Source: Chloroflexota bacterium (GTDB lineage: Bacteria; Chloroflexota; UBA6077). Taken from it: 12,970 nt of DNA. Shown here in pieces: positions 99 to 12,970 of the stretch. Both the position numbers and the translations under genes were made by a program. The DNA is taken from positions 1 to 12,970 of the forward strand of contig JAJZQR010000146.1 of NCBI GenBank assembly GCA_021806765.1, written 5' to 3'. The notes below the pieces were generated by a model. The model did no database searches, was not told where the DNA came from, and was given only the letters and a program-made list of their open reading frames with translations. Numbering within the stretch: the stretch's first letter is position 1; each line of letters begins with the position of its first letter.

Positions 99-701
99 GT
101 GAAGAAGCAGAGATCGCAGTCCATGGCGGTATCGACCCCGACATCGGCCGTCCTTGATGCCTGCGTCCTTTTCTCGGCAGCATTGAGGGACACCCTGCTT
201 AGGGCTGCGGTCAAGAGGCTATACCGCCTCCACCTAACTGAAGAGATCCTCGATGAAGTCCGCCGCAACTTGCTGAAGAGCGGCAGAATCGCCGATCCCA
301 GGCTAGCTGACCGCCTGGTCGAGCAGATCCGAAGGGCCTTTCCTGGCTCGATGGTAGAGGGCTACTCGACCCTGATGCCGAAGATGGCTAACCACCCGAA
401 GGATCGCCACGTCCTGGCGGCAGCAGTCGCCGCCGGGGCAAGCGTTATCGTTACGCACAATCTGGGAGACTTCCCTATTCAAGCCCTAGATCCATATAGG
501 GTTATTGCTCAGTCGCCCGATGACTTCCTCGTCGCTCTCTATGCGGCCTCTCCTGATGCCATGCACCGAATCCTTCAGGAGCAATCTGCTTCTCTTCGAT
601 TCCCGCAGATGAGTGTAGAGGAGATTCTCGACAGACTCGCTCACCAGCAGGTTCCCAGGTTCGCTGACCTCATGAGAAAGCGAGTCGAATCGGTTAGCTG
701 A
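99..701 (+). CDS. PIN-domain protein, probable toxin ribonuclease of a toxin-antitoxin module
   Basis: This 200-residue protein has a PIN (VapC-like) ribonuclease fold. The acidic residues expected of a PIN active site are present: D20 in VLDACVLFS near the N-terminus, E48/E49 in LTEEILDEV, D102 in HPKDRHVLAAA and D124 in THNLGDFP. PIN enzymes are Mg2+-dependent RNases, and as toxins they cleave tRNA, rRNA or mRNA in the cytoplasm. Residues 125-200 extend beyond the PIN core and look helical; this extension occurs in a longer PIN subfamily usually paired with HTH antitoxins. The GTG start at 99 follows AGGAGAG, but ATG at 123 would also leave a complete PIN domain. The preceding gene ends 42 nt upstream, suggesting one transcript with autoregulation by the antitoxin. 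All four acidic positions are intact, so it looks active. The PIN fold is confident; the RNA target is unknown. Confidence 0.85.
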   Translation: MKKQRSQSMAVSTPTSAVLDACVLFSAALRDTLLRAAVKRLYRLHLTEEILDEVRRNLLKSGRIADPRLADRLVEQIRRAFPGSMVEGYSTLMPKMANHPKDRHVLAAAVAAGASVIVTHNLGDFPIQALDPYRVIAQSPDDFLVALYAASPDAMHRILQEQSASLRFPQMSVEEILDRLAHQQVPRFADLMRKRVESVS

Positions 702-2020: not shown

Positions 2021-5000
2021 TCACGTCAACAGATTCTGCCGCTGGCGATACAGATCGGCCACCTCGCGGGCGCAGGCCTCGGGGTCACGCATGATGGTCT
2101 TGCCCCAGTAGGTGAGCACAACCCATCCACCCCCCTGCTTTGATTGAAGCCAGTTCCGTTTCTGAGCATCGAGCTCCAGAGTGTGAGGGTTTCCATGGAA
2201 GGCGAAGCCGTCGCAGAACACCGCTATGTTGGCATTCGGATAGGCGAAATCCGCTATGGTGACGAGCTGTTCACCGTTTCGGATCTCCATCTGAGACACA
2301 GGCGGGGGTAGGTCCGGGATCGAGCGCAAGGCATCCAGCAGTCTCTGTTCGATGGGCGATTGGGGACCAGCGTGACCCGGCAGCTTCCCCGTGGCCTCCA
2401 GTTCCTGTCGGCGCAACTGGAGTTCTCCCCGAAGCCTCGTCGTCGCTTCCCCCGGACCAACTCGTAGGGGCATGATGGGTTCCATCCTGGACATTGCTAG
2501 GAGAATCGGCCGGACGCGATCCTTGTCAAAGAAGTTGTGCCAGCCCTGGTTCCGATAGTGCTTGAGGCACAGGTAACACCCGCGGGCGCACGCGTGACCA
2601 TACAGCCGTTCCCTGGCCGCCTGCGCCACCTCCGGAAGCCTACGGGCCATCTCCTCGACGTATCCCGCACCGCCAGGCACGGTCTCGTAGAAGACGATCT
2701 CGGCGATGGCGGCCGTCGTCGGCAGTCGACGCGGAAAGGCCGCGATCTCGTGGGTTTCCAACTCCAGCAGATCGGCGGCGCCCGCGAGGAGGGCCTCAGC
2801 AAGCGTAACCAGTGTTGGAGAAAGCGAAGATCGTCCTATCGTGCGCGTATCGTGTGGATTCGGAACGCTCAGCACCAGGCAGTCTGTTTGGAACTTGTAT
2901 GCCAGGACGAGGGGGACGGGCGCACCGGAGCAAATGCGGGCATGGCTTTCCATCCAGTTTTGGATGGTGCGAATCTGCGATGGATCCGAGGGGTCATGCG
3001 ACTGGTGACGTCCACAGTCCGGGCAAAGCCAGAAGCGCATCCCTTCGCTAAGCCGCGTTGGATCCGGTTGTCCCCAGTTGGTGATCAGCACTTCGCTGAG
3101 CCTGCGGCATTCCAGAGGCGAGAACGGATACTCGTAGAGATGACACTCCCCGTCTCCCTGTGGCAGGAGGTTCTCTCGCCTGACATGGCGCCGACGTTCC
3201 CTCGATTCCTCATCGGATCCGATCCGGAGGGACTCCTCTGCCTCGAAAGCGTCCACGAAGACGGTTTCCGTTGGAGCAGGCAAGGCGGCGCCACAACTGG
3301 GACAGTTGTTCCGCACCTCTTCAGTCACGTGGTCGCAGCACTCGCAGAACTGAAAGGACCTGAGCCGGCCGGAAGTCTCGGCGTCGGACCGGGCGGGCTG
3401 GCTGCTCGAACGCCCTGGACCACCTGCAAACAGGACCCGAATCGACCTCAGTTTGTGCCCGTTGGCGTAGACAAAGTTTCCGGGCGCAAACTCCTCGATA
3501 GCGATGGCCGAGGGCCTGTACAGAGTGGGTGTATCGATAACGCCAGGATCCAGGCTAAAGGTGTCCACCGGGAACTGGTAGGCAGGGAGCAAGCCTTGCA
3601 TCGACAGGTAGTTGAGCGTGTAGGCTCTCTCTCGATCTACTGTGATCTCTCGGTACGCTCGCTGCCTGGCCGCCGCTTTCTTCATGTCGTGGGCTGGCGA
3701 GCCGACCGCGGAGTATTGCCTGAACTCCTCGTCCAGTTGCTGAACCCGTTCCCACCAAGCCTCGAGAACACTACTGAGATCCGCTCGAAACGAACCGACC
3801 AGCTCCGCACACTCATCTCGTCCGTATCGGATGGTGCGACGGGTCCGGCGGTCATCGGCGAACAGGCCCTCCAACTGCGACACCAACGCGCTACCCTTGG
3901 CCTCCACCTCCGCGAAGAGCCCCGACAGGTTCTCGCTTTCCCAGCGACTTGGACTGCGAGGATCGTCGAGGAAGTCACCCATGATAAAAGGCAACTGCGC
4001 ATCGACTGACTCAAGGATGAAAGATCGGAGGTGGCGGTGCACTATGCGGTGATTGTCCAACCGAACGCGAGGTGGCGAGAAATGCCCAGCGACTAGCCAT
4101 TCGGGGTTCTCGAAGGCGTGCCGATCATGCGCTCCCCCCGCGCAGAAGGTGGTGACGAAGCCAATGCGCAGCCGACGTCCAGCCCGACCAACTCGCTGGA
4201 CGTAGTTTGCCGGCGTTGGAGGCGCATTGCGCAGGATCACGGTGAGCAGCGGACCGATGTCAACACCGAGCTCCAAAGTAGGGGTGCATACCATGAGGTC
4301 GACACGCCCGTCCTTGAAGTCCGTTTCTCGCCTTGCCCTCTCCTCTCCTGTGATTTGGGCGCTGTGCTCTACCACCGCCAGCCTCTGCGGAGACCGACTC
4401 GTGAACAGACGGACATAGTAGCTGTCCTGGTCCGGACTGTCGGGCAGAAGCGTCCCGTTGGTGCACTTTGGGGTTGGGCAGGTAGGAAGAAGGTAGGGTC
4501 GCCACGTCTGGCAAGCATTGCAGCGAAAGCCGGCAGCCGGACTCACAAGACGGATGGTCTTCGGGTCTAGCTGAAGAACTCGAAGGGTCGCGACGCGATC
4601 TTCTTTCGCTATCGGGAAGTCCCGGACCTCCATCAATACACACGCCGGTTCCCGCTCGAGGATCGGCACCAGCGCTCGGATAAAGGCTTCGGCGCGGCGA
4701 CGATCGCCGATTACCCTGGCGGCGACCTTGTGGAAGGCCGTCAACTGCCCGGTATGCGGGTTCTCCTGATAGAAGCCGAGAATGCTGTTGGATTTCGATT
4801 TCCGTATGTGGTCCGGGCGGTCGAGGGCGAAGCCCTTCGGCCCTCGGTCGCGATCAGGGAACCGCACACCGTAGGGCTCGGCCTCGAGCTCGCGGTACTT
4901 GTACTTCTTGTTTGGATCGATGTACTCCTGGAAGAAATCGAAGGCAAGGGCCCGGTTCTTCCGCATGATGTCTAGCAGCGCCCGCACCAGCGTGAGCGCC

Positions 5001-7294
5001 AGCTTCATCTCTATCCCTGCCGAAATGACAGCACCTACGAAGGCCGGCTCGGACTCGAGATCCTCCAGGAACTCGTACTCGACGGCAAGCAGGCCGAGGT
5101 TCTCTAGGGACGCTCGCTGTCGGCTGTACCGGCTGAACTCGTTCGCCAACTCGTAAGTGATCGCCTTAAGCCACCGCTCTCGCTCAGGCCGCGTAGGTCG
5201 CCGCTGTATGATCCCCAGCTTCAGGAAGCGATCGAAGAGCCGCTGGGGCAGCTCCTGCAGGTAGATCCCTGCACCTCCAGCGTTGCGTACCTCTTCCACG
5301 ACCATGTGCCGCAGTGCAAAAGCACGGTTCTTGTCGGCAGTGTAGCCGGCCTGGTGCGCCACATCCTGGCGGTTATCTGCGAAGACCAAGAGCTTCCGAT
5401 CTTCGCCCTCCAGAAGGTCGAGATGGTGAGCGGCCATGGCTGAAATGGTGGAGGCTGTGCCAGTACGGAGTGGTGAGACGATATCACCCCGTGTGTAGAC
5501 ATCCCCACAAGCTGGGCAGCTATGCATGGGCCCCTTGCGGAGAAGACACCGTACCCCGCGTAGGTTGCAGGCAGGACAGTTCCGCTCATCCGGCAAGACG
5601 CGGCCGCAACCGACACACAGGCGGATCTCCTCGAGCTTGTCTTCGCCGGCCGCAACCCGCTGCACCCTCCGTTTCGGCGGCACCTCGTCTCCGGTCTCGG
5701 TTCCTTCCTGCTCCTCGTCCGAGACGCCCGGCGCCTCAGCCAGTTGATGAACCTGAGGGGTTAGAAAGGCCGTGCGGTCGTCGCTATAGAAATCGGCATC
5801 GCCTACCGGGAGTTGATCGTCCTCAGCCTCGAAACGCACCTTGACGAAATCCTGACCACAAGTCCGGCAGAGAGCGGCCGGTCTCGCTGCAGAGCCGCAG
5901 GTTGGACACTCCGAGCCCCCATGAGGGATCAGCCTACGGCAGTCCGGGTTCAAACAAAGGGAGATGTCGTAGACACCGTGGACGAAGGTGTGTAGCTTGG
6001 GCCTCAGTCTGGGTGCATGGTGTTCATCGCCGATGCTGCCAACCAACAGATATGCAGCTACCTCACGGCGCACACCTTCTTCCGGCAGCGTTCCCCTATC
6101 GGGGAAGGACCGAATAAGGTCCCTAGCCCCCTCGATTAGCGAGGCGGGCCCGGAGAATGTCCTTTCCAGTACTTCGACCACGGCGTTTCCCGTGAGAACG
6201 GCCGAGACCCGATCAGCTATGGGACCAACGGGGGGGCAGCGCTTACCCGTGATTCGTTCGGCCAGACGCACTACCTGCGCGTCTTCATGGGGATTGATTA
6301 GCAGGTCCTGGTCGGTCAGATCGGGGGGAGGCGGGACCCATTGACTAGTAGGAACCGGAGCGACGACCAGCTCCTCACCGATAACGTCGCCAGGGTGGAA
6401 CGTCTCCCCGAATAGCTCGGTGGCGAACTCTGCCAGAGCGTCGGTGCCGCCCTCCTCCGAGGCTACCGTGGCGGAAGTGCCGATTCCCACTAGAGTCCCG
6501 AGTGCGAGACCCGCATGCGCCTTTAGCCGGCGGATCAGGCAGGCGATCTCCGTGGCGAGGACCCCCCGGTAGGAATGCAGTTCGTCCAAGACCAAGTACC
6601 GAAGGCAGGGGGCAAAAAGCACTCTGTCCGCAGCCCTGACCAGAAGGAACTCCAATTGCTTGTAGTTGGTGAGGAGCAGATCCGGCGGGTTGCGCCGGAT
6701 ATCCTCGCGCGTGAGCAACTCGGTCTGGGCAGGCGCCTCGCGAAGCCTGGCAGACGAGGTGTCGCTGTCTCCGGTGTAGAGGGCATAGGAGATGTTGAGA
6801 TCGGAATCTCGCGGAAGCCGGCGGAGTCGCTCCAACTGGTCGTTGGCCAGGGCGTTCATGGGATACAGGAGAATGCCCTGTACACCATGAATGCCTTCTC
6901 GCTTGCGCCGAAGGATCCCGTCCAAGACCGGCAACAGGAAGGCTTCAGTCTTGCCAGAACCCGTTCCGGTAGTAACAACGAAGGACCGGCCGTTGCGGCC
7001 AGTCTCTAGCGCACGTTCCTGGTGCCGGTAGAGTGGATTCTCGCCGAAAGGCCAGTGTGCTTTGAGCAGTTCCGGGTCGGCGGCTCCGGTCATGACTAGA
7101 TCCGATAGAGCCGCGCCCCGCTTGAAGTCACGAGAGAGGGTGACGTAGGGACCTCGCACGACCACGTCGGCCTGTGCAAGATGCTCCTCAAACTGCCGTC
7201 GAAGCTGCGGATCGAGGAAACGGTAGGAGGTTCGCAGGAACCGACGATACTCGTCGATGATGTGCTGTACGCAGGTAACCGCCGAGGCCGTCAT
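2021..7294 (-). CDS. Giant DEAD/DEAH helicase with DUF1998 (MZB) domain and C-terminal Vsr/DUF559-like nuclease; DruE/DrmAB-like defence protein
   Basis: This 1,757-residue superfamily 2 helicase belongs to the COG1205/DUF1998 group. RecA1 holds Walker A TGTGSGKTE (109-117), DELH (237-240) and GTSAT (272-276). RecA2 begins near FADNRQD (638-644), is interrupted by about 300 residues, and resumes with TPTLELGVDIG (1004-1014) and QRVGRAGR (1033-1040). Cys clusters that could bind zinc lie at 447-479, 560-596, 925-944, 1317-1334 and 1424-1427. The DUF1998/MZB region (about 1490-1600) has YETVPGGAGYVEEM and HACARGCYLCLKHYRNQ. The tail (about 1640-1745) resembles Vsr/DUF559 nucleases: SPIEQRLL, ADFAYP, CDGFAFHG, GGWVVL. 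Helicase plus DUF1998 in one chain is the architecture of Druantia DruE; in DISARM these are separate proteins, DrmA and DrmB. It probably moves along or remodels invading DNA, and the tail may cut it. The ATG at 7294 follows GGAGG by 6 nt and lies 14 nt after the methyltransferase stop. The frame is intact. No PLD (DrmC) gene follows. The domains are confident; nuclease activity is not certain. Confidence 0.9.
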   Translation of the reverse strand: MTASAVTCVQHIIDEYRRFLRTSYRFLDPQLRRQFEEHLAQADVVVRGPYVTLSRDFKRGAALSDLVMTGAADPELLKAHWPFGENPLYRHQERALETGRNGRSFVVTTGTGSGKTEAFLLPVLDGILRRKREGIHGVQGILLYPMNALANDQLERLRRLPRDSDLNISYALYTGDSDTSSARLREAPAQTELLTREDIRRNPPDLLLTNYKQLEFLLVRAADRVLFAPCLRYLVLDELHSYRGVLATEIACLIRRLKAHAGLALGTLVGIGTSATVASEEGGTDALAEFATELFGETFHPGDVIGEELVVAPVPTSQWVPPPPDLTDQDLLINPHEDAQVVRLAERITGKRCPPVGPIADRVSAVLTGNAVVEVLERTFSGPASLIEGARDLIRSFPDRGTLPEEGVRREVAAYLLVGSIGDEHHAPRLRPKLHTFVHGVYDISLCLNPDCRRLIPHGGSECPTCGSAARPAALCRTCGQDFVKVRFEAEDDQLPVGDADFYSDDRTAFLTPQVHQLAEAPGVSDEEQEGTETGDEVPPKRRVQRVAAGEDKLEEIRLCVGCGRVLPDERNCPACNLRGVRCLLRKGPMHSCPACGDVYTRGDIVSPLRTGTASTISAMAAHHLDLLEGEDRKLLVFADNRQDVAHQAGYTADKNRAFALRHMVVEEVRNAGGAGIYLQELPQRLFDRFLKLGIIQRRPTRPERERWLKAITYELANEFSRYSRQRASLENLGLLAVEYEFLEDLESEPAFVGAVISAGIEMKLALTLVRALLDIMRKNRALAFDFFQEYIDPNKKYKYRELEAEPYGVRFPDRDRGPKGFALDRPDHIRKSKSNSILGFYQENPHTGQLTAFHKVAARVIGDRRRAEAFIRALVPILEREPACVLMEVRDFPIAKEDRVATLRVLQLDPKTIRLVSPAAGFRCNACQTWRPYLLPTCPTPKCTNGTLLPDSPDQDSYYVRLFTSRSPQRLAVVEHSAQITGEERARRETDFKDGRVDLMVCTPTLELGVDIGPLLTVILRNAPPTPANYVQRVGRAGRRLRIGFVTTFCAGGAHDRHAFENPEWLVAGHFSPPRVRLDNHRIVHRHLRSFILESVDAQLPFIMGDFLDDPRSPSRWESENLSGLFAEVEAKGSALVSQLEGLFADDRRTRRTIRYGRDECAELVGSFRADLSSVLEAWWERVQQLDEEFRQYSAVGSPAHDMKKAAARQRAYREITVDRERAYTLNYLSMQGLLPAYQFPVDTFSLDPGVIDTPTLYRPSAIAIEEFAPGNFVYANGHKLRSIRVLFAGGPGRSSSQPARSDAETSGRLRSFQFCECCDHVTEEVRNNCPSCGAALPAPTETVFVDAFEAEESLRIGSDEESRERRRHVRRENLLPQGDGECHLYEYPFSPLECRRLSEVLITNWGQPDPTRLSEGMRFWLCPDCGRHQSHDPSDPSQIRTIQNWMESHARICSGAPVPLVLAYKFQTDCLVLSVPNPHDTRTIGRSSLSPTLVTLAEALLAGAADLLELETHEIAAFPRRLPTTAAIAEIVFYETVPGGAGYVEEMARRLPEVAQAARERLYGHACARGCYLCLKHYRNQGWHNFFDKDRVRPILLAMSRMEPIMPLRVGPGEATTRLRGELQLRRQELEATGKLPGHAGPQSPIEQRLLDALRSIPDLPPPVSQMEIRNGEQLVTIADFAYPNANIAVFCDGFAFHGNPHTLELDAQKRNWLQSKQGGGWVVLTYWGKTIMRDPEACAREVADLYRQRQNLLT

Positions 7295-7300
7295 GGATTG

Positions 7301-7305
7301 CCTCC
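7301..7305 (-). promoter_or_regulatory. Shine-Dalgarno sequence of the helicase gene
   Basis: GGAGG on the minus strand, 6 nt before the ATG at 7294 and just after the methyltransferase TAG stop (7309-7311). It fixes the helicase start and supports translation of the two genes from one mRNA. Confidence 0.75.
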
Positions 7306-7308
7306 ATC

Positions 7309-10300
7309 CTAGGGCAGAAAGCCCAGCTTGCGGAGTCCTCGAAGCGCGCTTTCGACCAATTCCGGAGCGAAGGCTTGCCGATCAAGTTTGCCTTTCCATT
7401 GCGGTGAGGCCTCGATGTAGGCCAGCACCGATGGGCAGTCGACAGTTCCTCCGAGGCTTGCGGTCTCTCGCGCTGCCATGTCTACCGTCGTCCAGCGTTC
7501 CAGCGCATCGTCCCCAAAGTCCCGGAACTCCTCGACAACTCGGCGTGCGGCCCGTAGGTCGACGTACCTGGAGACGTACCTGGCAACGTCATCAATCCTG
7601 GGCCCGGGAGCGAAATGTGACGAGTCCGCAGCCACCAACCACCGCATTTGGCGAACGGCTATGCTCTCGGGACCACGATACCGCAGCTTGGGGTCGTACG
7701 GTCCAGCAGCCTGCTTCGAGAAGTCGTTGAACAGGGTAGGTGATGTGGCCTGTTCGATGAGGTAGATGGTCTTGCCCACCCGAAAACGGCTGACCGGTCT
7801 GGGCGGCTCGTATAGGTTCTGGACCACCCAGGCGAAGATAGCAGCCTGCTTGAACTGCGTGCTGGCCTGTCGCACCTTGGGTTTCTCTTGCCTCACCTCA
7901 AGCTCGTAGGGCTCCGGGGATTCCGCAGCCCTTGCCACAGTCGCAGGGGGTGGTGCGATGGAGTATATGTTGTCGAGCTGCCGCACACTTCCGAACTCGG
8001 TCCTACACTCAGCCAACCGTTCTTGGAGGTAGGAGTAGAAACCGGCTCTCTTGCGCGCGAAGACAGGAAAGAAGTCCAGCACATGCTCAAAGTCGTCTGG
8101 GGTCAAGCCGTACGCCTCTGCAACAGCTCGGTTTGAGGCCCAGATGGCTTGCCAAGTCTCTCTCACTTCCGTGATATGCTCAACACCGTGCCGCCAGGCA
8201 AGACGGGTTGGCACAGTCGGAAGCGCGTTGGCTACAGATGCTGGTGGTACGGCCATCGGCTTCATGTACGTGAAGCTGACATTTGTCCCGGCGGTCCGCG
8301 CCCGTAGCGCGTAGTCAAAGCAGAAAGAGTTGAGCACAGCGACGATCGCATCCGTGGCAACGCTGCCTGACACCAAGCCAGACAACTTGTGGCTCGCGGC
8401 TGACTGTGAGGGAAGGACGACTGCTATGCATGTTCGCTCATTCGTATTGCTCGCGGTCTCGCGGAACACAACTGCCTCACAAGCGGGTGGTTTCTTCCCG
8501 TACTTCTGCTCAGCCTGGGCAGTAGAGAGCCACCACCGAATCGCCTTGATGCCGACCAAACACTGATCTATGTGCTTTCCTTCAAAGATCGGCCAGAAAC
8601 CGCGTTCACGCATCAGCTGCGCACAGGTGTCTTCACTGAAAGACTGACTACCCAAAACCATGGTCGGAGAATACAACTGATTGGTATTCGGGTCGGTCCA
8701 CAGATCCTTATCCTCAGATGAGTTGTAGATGCAGCTGTGAGCACGCCAACTGATGAACGTAGCTTCCCATCCGCCGGGCACAGAATCCCCTAGCCTCGGC
8801 CGTCCTCGGTACATCTGGTGGACAATCTCCTGGTCCCGAGGGCTGCGAAACTCAAGGAAGGCGAGAGTCTCGGGCGACAAGTGGCGTATCTCGTCTCGGG
8901 TTATTCGCACCATCCATGGCTTGGGTCCTTCTTCGAGCAGTTCCCGGGGATCGTGACGCATGAACGCGGCGTGGAACGAGGATTCGCCCATCCCCTTGCG
9001 AAAAACGAGATTGACGAACTTGTAACGCGAGTCTATGGGAAACAACTTCTTTCGATTCTCGAAGCCGTAGAAACGCTCGATAGAAGCCTCGTTCAACAGG
9101 AATCGGCGGATCCCCACGCAGCCGTCACCATTGTAGATGACCGAGGGTACAACAAGCCCGACTCGGCCACCCTTGCCTGCGACTCGAGCAGTTCGATCAA
9201 CGAAGTACTTGGAGAGATCCTCATGTGCCGACTGAGATCGCGCCTGGGACAGAGGGAAGTCTCCGCTACGTCTGAGCAGATGGGCGAGAGTTGTGGTTCG
9301 GTTCTGGTAGGCCGCAAAGACGTCCTTGAGTCCAGGGGTGGTCTTGTGAAGCTCTCGAATGCGCCGATCCAGCTCGTTTCCTTTGTACGCCCTGATGAGT
9401 ACATCGTGACGGGAGTAGAACTCCAGGCGCGACGGCAGCACCTTATCCCATGGAGGATTCCCCAACACCGCATCGAAGCCCGTCCTTTCTGCCTCGAGGA
9501 AACGTTCGGGGAACTCCAACTCCCAATGGAAGAACCGCTCACGGGCGCAGACCGACCGGAAGGCATCCCACCATGGGCGAGATCTCGCGCGAGCCTCGAG
9601 CGCGGCCGCTTCCGCCACCAGCGGACTGAGCGAAGGCCAGTCTTCCCAGATCTCGGGCAGGAAAGCCGATGCCGAGCGCAAGTCGAAGAGAAGTCGAGCT
9701 CCTGCGAGGATGTCTTCTGCTCGCCGCTGTTGGCGCCCCTTGAACTCCTGCTCCTGGGCGCTTTCCGGATCGATTCCCTCTTGGTTCAGCGCTCCCTGGT
9801 CCGCTTCATCGATGAGACGCCTCGCCCGTGCAGCCTCGCCAACAGCCTTTCGCACGAGGTCTCCGAACATGTCGACTTGGAGAACGTTGCTCGATCGGCT
9901 CATTGATGGCAAGGGTGGTTGGTCGAGCCGATCCAGCCAGGTTCCCAGCAGCGAGTTGCCGCAACGAATGTGATGCTCGAAGTAGGTCAGGGGGCGGTCG
10001 CCCGCCAGCGACTCGATCCACAGGGCCACCCGTGCCAACGCCACCGCGGTCGGATTCAGGTCGATCCCGTAGAGGCAGCGTTCGGCGATCCGCCGCTTGC
10101 ACCAGGCTCGGGCTTCGGAGTTGGAGGCCCGGGCTTGCTCGTCAGAAGCCTGCCAGTCCCGATCCCACGCGCCGCGGAACTGGAGGGGTGGCCTTCCGTC
10201 GCACTCCCGCACGTAGGCGCGGTGGAGCTCTTTCCCCAGAAAACGCATGGCCTCCACCAGGAAATGGGCGCTTCCACACGCCGGGTCCACAATTCGGAGG

Positions 10301-11688
10301 CTCTCTATCTCGTGGACTGATTTCCCAATGGCAAGCGGCCCCAGCGTGTGACGCACCAGATCCTGAACCAATGGCAAGGGCGTGTAGAAGGTGCCTGAAC
10401 CCTTCCTCCCCGAACCAGGCACGAAGTGGAAGACTCCGGCCTCAAACCTTCGCGTGAGTCTGACCGTCGCTCCCTCGGCTACTCCATCATTCGCATCATC
10501 TTCGTCGCCGCTCTCCTCGTCGGCCTCGACCTGCGCTTCCACGTCTTCGGTCTCAGCCTCCGGGGCGTCTTCGTCGGAAGGTGCATCGGGATGTAGGCAT
10601 TCTGCGGCGGTACCGCTCACGATCGCGAAGTCCCCTTTGACCCTCAGCCCCTTGTCCTGACAGAGTCGGACAAGGTCTGGACCAGACAGGACGAACACCT
10701 TGCCCTGCACCTGCACCTCGAGCATTACCTCGCGAGCCAGCCGGGGCTCGTATTCCAGGAGTCCCTCGTAGACCGCCCCGAGGCTCTCGATGTCCAGTTC
10801 ACGGAAGGACACCCGTTCGCGTCCGATGCCGCGTCGGGGTGCCGCAGTCGTGAGATCCAGAAGGACGCGTGCGACCAGTCGGTCCGGCAGCTGGGCGGCA
10901 TCCAGGATTCGCCCCTGAGGGGTGGTGGGTTTGAAGAAGTCCCCGCCCCTGGGCGGGATATGCTCCCATTGGGTGACTCGATGGAGTCCCTCGTCGTAGA
11001 TCCGGAAAGTGGCCTTCAGCCGTGCCCAAAGTCCCGACCGGTTCTCGGGGGCACGCTTTGTCGCAGATCTCATCAGCTCGTCGATGAGCCCGTGCACGGA
11101 GTAGCCCACTTCGTAGATCCTGTGTTGTTGGAGCCGCCGGTCCCTAGCCTCTGCGTAGAGAATGAACAGGATTCGGTACAGTGCAGTCAGCGCCGCATCT
11201 CGGTAGCTATGCAAATCCTGTTCAGAGATGAGAAGAGGATCAGTCACCTCTCCCCGGGAGACAGCACCTTGCAGTAATCCTCCCACCAGCGATTCCGCCG
11301 CGGTGAAAACCGCCCTCTTGAGGTCCTCAGAAACCCTCTCCGCATGCTCCCGACTCGCAGCCTCTATGCTGGAAATGGGCAGAGAGCCATCCGGAGCGGG
11401 CAAGAACTGCTGAGCATGGAACAATCGGTGGAAGAGGGCAAAGGACTGGAAATCTTCGTCCTCCGCCATACCGGCGAGATCCACTTCGAGATACGATCCT
11501 CTGGGGCCATCACCGGATGCTCGCATGAGGCGGAACCGCTCGCCGGTGACCAGGAAGCCGTATCCCAGTTCCGCATCCGACAGCACGCGTTCCATCTGTC
11601 GCATCGGGGCAGTGGTGCCCCGCCCGGCATCCAGATCTTCGTCCCACTCGCCGCAGTAGACAGCCAGCAGAGGATGCCCTCCCGCCAA
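7309..11688 (-). CDS. N6-adenine DNA methyltransferase, Eco57I/DrmMI type (main open part of an amber-interrupted gene)
   Basis: The 1,459-codon open part carries a complete class I adenine methyltransferase core. GTFYTP (432-437) precedes the SAM-binding motif I DPACGSAHFL (468-477), then GIDLNPTAVALARVALW (541-557) and the catalytic NPPW (744-747), which indicates adenine-N6 transfer. An acidic linker (about 369-400) separates the core from the N-terminal region, which resembles the nuclease-like N-terminal domains of type I and IIG enzymes (YGFLVTGERFRLMR) but lacks an obvious D...ExK site. The roughly 700 residues after NPPW probably hold the target-recognition domain. Its size, the SNF2-type gene upstream and the helicase downstream match DrmMI of class 1 DISARM, which marks self DNA. 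The same frame continues upstream through TAG (11713-11715) into an 88-codon piece starting at 11979. The TTG at 11688 is only the first possible start after that stop and has no Shine-Dalgarno sequence. The intact gene would be 7309-11979. It ends in TAG 14 nt before the helicase ATG. Confidence 0.87.
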   Translation of the reverse strand: MAGGHPLLAVYCGEWDEDLDAGRGTTAPMRQMERVLSDAELGYGFLVTGERFRLMRASGDGPRGSYLEVDLAGMAEDEDFQSFALFHRLFHAQQFLPAPDGSLPISSIEAASREHAERVSEDLKRAVFTAAESLVGGLLQGAVSRGEVTDPLLISEQDLHSYRDAALTALYRILFILYAEARDRRLQQHRIYEVGYSVHGLIDELMRSATKRAPENRSGLWARLKATFRIYDEGLHRVTQWEHIPPRGGDFFKPTTPQGRILDAAQLPDRLVARVLLDLTTAAPRRGIGRERVSFRELDIESLGAVYEGLLEYEPRLAREVMLEVQVQGKVFVLSGPDLVRLCQDKGLRVKGDFAIVSGTAAECLHPDAPSDEDAPEAETEDVEAQVEADEESGDEDDANDGVAEGATVRLTRRFEAGVFHFVPGSGRKGSGTFYTPLPLVQDLVRHTLGPLAIGKSVHEIESLRIVDPACGSAHFLVEAMRFLGKELHRAYVRECDGRPPLQFRGAWDRDWQASDEQARASNSEARAWCKRRIAERCLYGIDLNPTAVALARVALWIESLAGDRPLTYFEHHIRCGNSLLGTWLDRLDQPPLPSMSRSSNVLQVDMFGDLVRKAVGEAARARRLIDEADQGALNQEGIDPESAQEQEFKGRQQRRAEDILAGARLLFDLRSASAFLPEIWEDWPSLSPLVAEAAALEARARSRPWWDAFRSVCARERFFHWELEFPERFLEAERTGFDAVLGNPPWDKVLPSRLEFYSRHDVLIRAYKGNELDRRIRELHKTTPGLKDVFAAYQNRTTTLAHLLRRSGDFPLSQARSQSAHEDLSKYFVDRTARVAGKGGRVGLVVPSVIYNGDGCVGIRRFLLNEASIERFYGFENRKKLFPIDSRYKFVNLVFRKGMGESSFHAAFMRHDPRELLEEGPKPWMVRITRDEIRHLSPETLAFLEFRSPRDQEIVHQMYRGRPRLGDSVPGGWEATFISWRAHSCIYNSSEDKDLWTDPNTNQLYSPTMVLGSQSFSEDTCAQLMRERGFWPIFEGKHIDQCLVGIKAIRWWLSTAQAEQKYGKKPPACEAVVFRETASNTNERTCIAVVLPSQSAASHKLSGLVSGSVATDAIVAVLNSFCFDYALRARTAGTNVSFTYMKPMAVPPASVANALPTVPTRLAWRHGVEHITEVRETWQAIWASNRAVAEAYGLTPDDFEHVLDFFPVFARKRAGFYSYLQERLAECRTEFGSVRQLDNIYSIAPPPATVARAAESPEPYELEVRQEKPKVRQASTQFKQAAIFAWVVQNLYEPPRPVSRFRVGKTIYLIEQATSPTLFNDFSKQAAGPYDPKLRYRGPESIAVRQMRWLVAADSSHFAPGPRIDDVARYVSRYVDLRAARRVVEEFRDFGDDALERWTTVDMAARETASLGGTVDCPSVLAYIEASPQWKGKLDRQAFAPELVESALRGLRKLGFLP

Positions 11689-11712
11689 CTGGGCGTCGGC
11701 GGATTCATAGAG

Positions 11713-11715
11713 CTA
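11713..11715 (-). other. In-frame TAG (amber) interrupting the methyltransferase gene
   Basis: On the minus strand the frame reads GAT CGC ATG CAC TAG CTC TAT GAA TCC (split here by codon; D-R-M-H-stop-L-Y-E-S) and continues in the same frame into the 1,459-codon part. The flanking residues on both sides read as one N-terminal domain. A single base substitution, an assembly error or amber readthrough would each explain it. Confidence 0.85.
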
Positions 11716-11979
11716 GTGCATGCGATCTTCACCTGGGCCCAGGTGGAACCCCTGGAGGTCTCGAAGCAGCGGCCGAATGAAGCGTTCACGGCAGGTCGGC
11801 GCATCCATGTCCCTGCCCTGCGCCTGGTAGTACAGGCGCACGAACTTGCGATAGGCAACGTCAACGGACTTATCGCTGGCCTGCTTCTTCCGCCCCCGGC
11901 CGTCCCCTCTGCCGAAGACGCTTCCGAGGTAGTAATCGGAGAAGAAGCCGCGAACGTTGCGAAGATGACGGAAGCTCAT
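11713..11979 (-). CDS. N-terminal 88 residues of the adenine methyltransferase, ended by the in-frame amber codon
   Basis: This is the true 5' end of the methyltransferase gene rather than a separate small gene. It begins MSFRHLRNVRGFFSDYYLG at an ATG whose last two bases lie in the TGA of the upstream DrmD-like gene (ATGA overlap), with GAGGA 6 nt upstream. The piece contains ASDKSVDVAYRKFVRLY and CRERFIRPLLRDLQGFHL, which look like the opening helices of an Eco57I/type I-style N-terminal domain, and stops at TAG while the same frame continues. As a free 88-residue peptide it would be only part of a domain. Without suppression, ribosomes leaving here have no good site to restart the remainder. 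Confidence 0.75.
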   Translation of the reverse strand: MSFRHLRNVRGFFSDYYLGSVFGRGDGRGRKKQASDKSVDVAYRKFVRLYYQAQGRDMDAPTCRERFIRPLLRDLQGFHLGPGEDRMH

Positions 11980-12970
11980 GTCACGTCCTCGGGCACCAAG
12001 AAGAGTGCACCCATCGGCCGAACGGCACTTGGCCCGGTCATCTCGTCCACTCGCTCGAAGTCGGCAATCTCGGCTCGGCGAGCATCTGCTTGGGCTTCGA
12101 TCGCGGCACGGCGTGACTGGAAGCCATTGGGCCGATGATCATCCACGCTGAACATCCGCAGTTGTCCGGTCCGTTCATCAATCAGTCCAAGAGCGCGCCG
12201 TTCTTCATCCTGGATCTCCTCGAGCCGATCCGCCAGATCGGTATCTAGATCAGATCGGAGAACCTCGGCCTGTTCGGCGCGGCGAAGCCGGAGTGCCTCG
12301 ATTCGTCGCGCTACGTGCTGCTGAGCAAAGCTTGTTGCCGTCTCTGCCATCTGCTCGAAGTGTGCGGAGAATAGCGCCGTGATCGTGGACGGAGGAACCT
12401 CACCGGGCAGGGCTTCGTGTCTCAGCAGTTGGTACGCCTCCTCGGGGCTTCCGAGCAGTTGGCCCCGAGTTGTGACTCGCAGGGCAATCAGATGCTCCTC
12501 GCAGAGATCGCCGCCTCCGGTCACCACTCCCATGAAGGTGAACACCGCTGACGGGGGCTGATCCTTGGGGACACGACGAGCTGCCAACCTGCGGGGCGGA
12601 AGGCCACGTCGATCCGGATAGACCTGGAGTAGAGACCGACGAGCTTCAGCTGCGAGGGACTGAGCGAGGGGATGAAGTGGAGTGATGAACTCCACCTCGT
12701 CGGCTCGGTACTGGACGGCCACAGAGCGGCGAAAGGTGGCGGGGATAGACGGGTAGCACGTCGGGGCCCCGATAGCGCACTGGAACCTGAATACGGAAGA
12801 CGCCCTCGGTCGTCGTCGCCACGACCGCCTTCGGCCCAAGAATGTCGGACATCAACATCTCGAGTTCCTTCTCGTCCGGCATCAACGGCTCCGCTGTGTT
12901 CAGCAGATCCAAGAGACGCTGGCTTTCGAGGACGTCGCTCCCGTCTCCTGCCGTAATCAAGGGTTGGACG
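11976..12970 (-). CDS. C-terminal part of a large DrmD-like (SNF2-type helicase) protein, 5'-partial and frameshifted
   Basis: The gene enters from the right edge and ends in TGA at 11976-11978, which overlaps the methyltransferase ATG by 4 nt. About 330 residues are visible. The edge-side frame runs through LLNTAEPLMPDEKELEML and FRIQVPVRYRGPDVLPVYP, then loses sense. The next frame carries on with ATFRRSVAVQYRADEV and FITPLHPLAQSLAAEARR. They join perfectly if one C is removed from CCCC (GGGG at 12741-12744). The C-terminal third is charged and probably coiled-coil (HVARRIEALRLRRAEQAEVL, DLADRLEEIQDEERRALG). I recognise this layout (a PLHPL segment, then a long charged helix) as the region after the helicase core in DrmD of class 1 DISARM; no helicase motifs fall inside the window, so the call rests on this resemblance and the neighbours. 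The role would be an ATP-driven DNA translocase in restriction. As written, translation from upstream would end early near 12646. Confidence 0.65.
11986..11990 (-). promoter_or_regulatory. Shine-Dalgarno sequence of the methyltransferase gene
   Basis: GAGGA on the minus strand, 6 nt before the ATG at 11979, inside the end of the DrmD-like gene. It confirms that the methyltransferase starts at 11979 and not at the TTG at 11688. Confidence 0.7.
12741..12744 (-). other. Frameshift site: extra base in a four-C run of the DrmD-like gene
   Basis: On the minus strand the frame reads GTC TAT CCC CGC CAC and then loses sense. With CCC in place of CCCC it reads TAT CCC GCC ACC TTT CGC (Y-P-A-T-F-R) and continues to the TGA that overlaps the next gene. 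A homopolymer sequencing error, a real mutation, or +1 slippage of a proline tRNA on CCC-C would each account for it. Confidence 0.8.

Follow-up and report, generated by a model that had tools for sequence, protein, structure and literature searches.

Gene content of the locus

We analyzed the first 12,970 nt (hereafter, the window) of a 36,939-nt contig (JAJZQR010000146.1) of an uncultured Chloroflexota bacterium. The reverse strand of the window carries armC, armB, and the 3′ end of armA. The genes are named here after the components of the ARMADA anti-phage defense system, and the coordinates are given in Table 1. Loci used for comparison are designated by L numbers.

Table 1. Positions of the genes and features described in the text.
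Feature	Location	Strand	Remarks
ArmA-like gene, 3′ end (RapA/BrxHII/DrmD-like helicase)	11976..12970	−	Last ~330 codons in window; from alignment to ArmA of relatives
ArmB-like gene (DrmMI/PglX-like adenine methyltransferase)	7309..11979	−	1,556 codons including in-frame TAG; from DrmMI match, domains, NPPW
In-frame TAG within ArmB-like gene	11713..11715	−	Codon 89
ArmC-like gene (YprA/DruE-like SF2 helicase, cysteine/zinc modules, OB-CON-DUF1998)	2021..7294	−	Intact, 1,757 codons
Vsr-like PD-(D/E)xK nuclease domain, ArmC C terminus	2024..2368	−	About residues 1643–1757
armB-armC interval genes	L014:5622-9957
armB-armC interval genes	L003:4643-9984
armB-armC interval genes	L103:5692-7374
armB-armC interval genes	L104:10171-13510
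armB-armC interval genes	L106:5971-7206
armB-armC interval genes	L005:8013-9467
armB-armC interval genes	L004:7980-9992
armB-armC interval genes	L006:8352-9479

The product of armC contains DEAD, Helicase_C, and MZB/DUF1998 domains and scored up to 458 bits with the DruE models of PADLOC versus 54 bits with DrmA. Predicted folds point to a DrmB/MrfA-like canopy and a Vsr-like tail. The armC gene starts 14 bp downstream of armB, whose product matched DrmMI with 364 bits and PglX with 31 bits. Eco57I and N6_Mtase domains as well as an NPPW motif are present in the ArmB translation. Relatives’ ArmB and ArmA proteins were taken from seven loci (L004, L005, L007, L014, L103, L104, and L106). The last ~180 ArmB residues (window:7312-7854, −) were aligned by L014 alone; the alignments of the other six stop 180 to 230 residues short of the ArmB end.

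The armA stop codon overlaps the ATG of armB, and the ArmA helicase core lies outside the window. The piece encoded by positions 11979-12851 aligned with ArmA in all seven relatives and the piece at 12649-12969 in six (L005 being the exception), both hitting consecutive places. No DrmD or SNF2 match was obtained with these pieces alone in domain and PADLOC profile scans. The 1,032–amino acid ArmA of L007 matched PADLOC DrmD (431 bits), PDLC02572 (labelled DrmA; 340 bits), and BrxHII (319 bits), as well as RapA structures (E = 1.8e-40).

An earlier, sequence-only reading of this DNA described a three-gene operon consisting of a DrmD-like SNF2 gene, a DrmMI-like methyltransferase gene, and a 1,757-residue helicase-DUF1998 gene. 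The last two genes are as described, and the third is intact. The DrmD-like assignment is upheld through relatives, by the alignment of the C-terminal end with their ArmA and by the DrmD match of the L007 copy, but not by the window pieces themselves; the gene is represented by its 3′ end only, and two of the three frames read as damaged.

Relationship to known defense systems

ARMADA was described in a 2025 preprint (Bell et al. 2025, bioRxiv, PMC12458937) as consisting of ArmA (a helicase resembling BrxHII and RapA), ArmB (a methyltransferase resembling PglX), and ArmC (a YprA helicase that is Druantia-like and carries a C-terminal Vsr nuclease), with UvrD-like ArmD added in Type II. The window shares with this class the same three components in a single operon. 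A BrxHII/RapA-like helicase is represented by the C-terminal third of ArmA, and a PglX-like methyltransferase by ArmB, whose gene carries the in-frame TAG. ArmC provides both the YprA/DruE-like helicase fused to the OB-CON-DUF1998 canopy and the C-terminal Vsr-type nuclease. Thus, gene content and order, homology, and predicted folds, which agree with the published description, indicate that the locus is very probably an ARMADA operon, armA-armB-armC, with Type II gene order but without armD. As a yardstick, the E. coli array of Zorya II, Druantia III, and ARMADA II was recovered. Unbroken armA and armB frames were observed in the armA-armB-armC relatives L004, L007, L103, L104, and L106.

Several observations weigh against this assignment. 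Only the C-terminal third of ArmA lies in the window, and the frames of two of the three genes read as broken. A BrxA-like helical insert after RecA1, a shared trait of the ARMADA lineage according to Bell et al. (PMC12458937), was absent among the Foldseek rows, where its absence does not exclude the insert. The trees presented below leave undecided whether the window branch belongs to Type I, Type II, or neither. Differences from described ARMADA are the lack of ArmD, a branch apart from the sampled Type I and Type II branches, and the two genes that read as broken.

Class 1 DISARM has drmD-like and drmMI-like genes in common with the window. It differs in that no separate drmB or drmC was found in the window, where the helicase and a DrmB-like part form a single protein and the nuclease is Vsr-like rather than PLD. 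The 10 window-branch loci surveyed each contain, within the flanks covered, one DUF1998 open reading frame (ORF) and no HxKx4D ORF, i.e., no separate drmB or PLD drmC. This survey is our basis for stating that DrmB and DrmC are absent, since a PADLOC scan of 53 ORFs in the flanks of eight loci is represented by the 25 commonest of 298 families. In the sequence-only reading, one DruE-like chain appeared to stand for DrmA and DrmB, and its nuclease tail was taken as a possible stand-in for DrmC; that interpretation as a whole is partly supported.

Type III Druantia shares the giant DruE-like helicase, but the window contains ArmA and ArmB, and no DruH was found. DruE of this type has two PLD-like domains (PMC12458937), instead of which the window ArmC has the Vsr-like tail. 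At E ≤ 1e-6, neither the window nor the branch loci gave a match to the E. coli DruH query; this is a narrow probe since it also misses the 1165–amino acid protein preceding DruE in L015 and similar ones. ArmB is the only ORF of DruH-like size adjoining ArmC in the window.

The sequence-only reading suggested that the locus, as a mixture of class 1 DISARM and Druantia parts, may be a distinct system or an intermediate, which would make it a hitherto unknown hybrid. A PADLOC scan, proposed with that reading, did return DruE and DrmMI as the best matches in the window, and DrmD was the best match for ArmA of L007 and L012; no family named ARMADA is among the PADLOC and NCBIfam profile matches listed. 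A novel hybrid is nevertheless very improbable, as the triad itself is already present in the preprint, where ARMADA is termed a missing link between DISARM and Druantia (PMC12458937). What looks like a hybrid belongs to a class described only recently, which the PADLOC and NCBIfam models used describe piecewise, as DrmMI and DruE.

In the inferred mode of action, ArmB would label the host DNA as self by adenine methylation, and RapA-like ArmA would translocate on or remodel DNA. ArmC would load onto DNA with an exposed single strand and unwind it, and its Vsr-like tail would cut, so that unmarked phage DNA would be destroyed without killing the cell. For DruE of Druantia, loading onto 3′ single strands and cleavage of long DNA are reported (Wu et al. 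2026, PMC13192584), and unmethylated DNA stimulates the DrmAB adenosine triphosphatase (ATPase) (Bravo et al. 2022, PMC9142583). According to Bell et al. (PMC12458937), protection by E. coli Type II ARMADA is non-abortive and depends on the ATPase motifs in both ArmA and ArmC as well as on the ArmB NPPW motif.

Apparent damage to armA and armB

ARMADA as a class is already described, and the copy in the window reads as damaged in two of three genes. The frame of armA changes near 12.74 to 12.76 kb: the upstream piece corresponds to residues 675 to 749 of the L103 protein and the downstream piece to residues 726 to 998. In armB, the parts before (88 residues) and after (1,467 residues) the in-frame TAG both aligned with all seven relatives, none of which is interrupted at this site. 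The two matches abut in five relatives; the other two, L004 and L005, leave about 40 residues unaligned at this place. Recoding of TAG was considered and set aside: since armB itself terminates with TAG, this codon works as a stop in the window. Because of the frame change in armA and the truncation of armB at codon 89, the copy as read is probably nonfunctional unless the lesions are sequence errors.

Broken frames are also found elsewhere in or near the window branch. The armA gene of L005 (L005:1078-4002) is interrupted by an in-frame stop (codon 915) near its 3′ end; in L006, armB is missing its first half and armC is split; and L107 likewise has a split armC. Therefore, decay or sequence error is not rare in this group. 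The armA gene of L014 is incomplete at the edge of the sequence compared.

We give an even chance to a decaying remnant, from which ArmC alone could still be produced at full length. The armA frame change and the armB TAG are consistent with it, as is the loss of E. coli protection when any of the four ARMADA genes is deleted (PMC12458937), but no decay is visible in ArmC. We place only slightly short of an even chance a working system in which both lesions are sequencing or assembly errors of a metagenome contig. ArmC, intact over 1,757 codons and with an ordinary terminal branch (0.28 and 0.22 in the 103-row and 46-row trees presented below), would fit such errors, and so would the spacing of the two lesions, ~1 kb apart with the remainder of armB and armC in frame. 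However, two lesions in two genes, and the broken frames of L005, L006, and L107, speak against errors.

Phylogenetic placement of ArmC

We built a FastTree phylogeny of 103 ArmC rows and a more careful one of 46 rows. The 103-row tree omits fragments (L006/L111, L107, and L108), loci identical to others (L002 and L091, same as L104; L109, same as L009), and L090-L102, which were refetched wider or were duplicates (L101 was omitted though not a duplicate). In both trees, the window belongs to a branch distinct from the E. coli Type II, Type I–like, and Druantia III–like branches. In the 46-row tree, the window branch has 11 rows (support 100/100), and the E. coli Type II (5 rows), Type I–like (12 rows), and Druantia III–like (6 rows) branches are each also supported at 100/100. 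The Type I–like branch comprises armC-first loci and archaea and is labelled from gene order and the archaeal rows. The Druantia III–like branch takes its name from E. coli DruE, which falls there, on a long branch, in the 103-row tree; DruE is not in the 46-row tree. The strongly supported separation of the window branch from the Druantia III–like one speaks for the ARMADA assignment. L006 (45%) and L107 (54 to 55%) were assigned to the window branch by identity rather than by tree. A rapid ArmB phylogeny with 37 rows recovers the window branch (8 rows, SH-aLRT 100). The approximately unbiased (AU) test did not reject a union of the window branch with the Type I–like one (p-AU 0.38), nor one with Type II (p-AU 0.231).

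ArmC cysteines 925-944 and 1424-1455 are present in all 10 window-branch rows and 560-576 in 7 or 8 of the 10. The full set is found in both Type II rows and all three Druantia-like rows. None is present in six of nine Type I–like rows, the armC-first ones; the archaeal rows L011, L012, and L018 keep all except 576.

An additional ArmC branch containing L017, L021, L024, L025, L059, and L076 (100/100) has 6 rows in the 46-row tree and 18 rows in the 103-row tree. The armA-armB-armC order occurs in L021, L024, L025, and L076, and in the sampling used their branch is separate from E. coli Type II.

The armB-armC interval and a possible third lineage

The armA gene lies upstream of armB in eight of nine window-branch loci with enough sequence, the exception being L006. 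In L010:3-9990, armB is flanked by two DrmD/BrxHII-like helicase genes, upstream of armC. ArmD, a GajB-like UvrD helicase that in Type II “almost always” follows ArmC (PMC12458937), was not found by phmmer with the E. coli ArmD query (E ≤ 1e-6) in any of the six loci with at least 2 kb beyond ArmC (the window, L005, L007, L014, L104 with L105, and L107).

The armB-armC interval is about 1.6 to 8.5 kb in 8 of the 11 window-branch loci with both ends visible and short in the window (14 bp), L007 (75 bp), and L107 (402 bp). Five of the eight filled intervals (L003, L004, L005, L006, and L106) contain an HTH-M78 metalloprotease gene; that of L003 also holds an Argonaute with a DpnII-like partner (nuclease). 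HamA-HamB are encoded in L014, a Schlafen-AlbA protein in L103, and DUF3800 and AAA_14/DUF4143 proteins in L104. Several of these inserted genes belong to defense families. An antisense 596–amino acid ORF between L005 armB and armC was rejected as spurious, as the HTH-M78 gene lies there on the opposite strand. Inserts also occur in the armA-armB-armC loci L036, L076, L086, and L087, but not in E. coli and others. The words Hachiman and accessory are absent from the main text of Bell et al. (PMC12458937).

We tentatively propose, as a possibility on the less probable side, that the window represents a third, bacterial ARMADA lineage of the order armA-armB-x-armC. It would lack ArmD, retain the cysteine modules missing in armC-first Type I rows, and use the armB-armC slot for exchangeable defense or regulatory genes, which may supply a sensor or effector replacing ArmD. 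If this is a distinct type, it would widen ARMADA in Acidobacteriota as well as other largely uncultured groups, and the in-operon cargo slot could be used for finding defense genes. Further interest lies in the window branch and this slot.

Distribution and neighboring genes

Among 7,995 candidates scored, 1,007 ArmC homologs were detected at E ≤ 1e-30; of the 120 listed, the query included, the others are 58 to 70% identical. Close relatives are rare in GTDB genomes: among 80 of the 576 confirmed loci, 4 show 59 to 63% and 4 show 42 to 46% identity. In five phylum samples, ArmC matches at E ≤ 1e-150 were present in 6/396, 1/298, 3/149, 1/297, and 1/398 genomes (center genomes included), with just 30 to 34% identity for two of the three matches in the 149-genome sample and the sole match in the 297-genome sample. 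Plasmids yielded a single weak match covering 53% of the query. Viral contigs contain eight ArmC-like loci (23 to 34% identity); seven are in the 103-row tree, all outside the window branch, and L084 (841 amino acids) was too short for it.

In L007:15266-17162, a Septu PtuA-like ATPase gene (PADLOC PtuA1, 518 bits) is located 9 bp past armC and is followed by a 224–amino acid ORF. In the window, positions 99-701 (+) encode an RSP_2648-family PIN-domain protein (NCBIfam 108 bits, under the cutoff of 170); the end of another frame precedes this gene, and the two possibly form a toxin-antitoxin pair.
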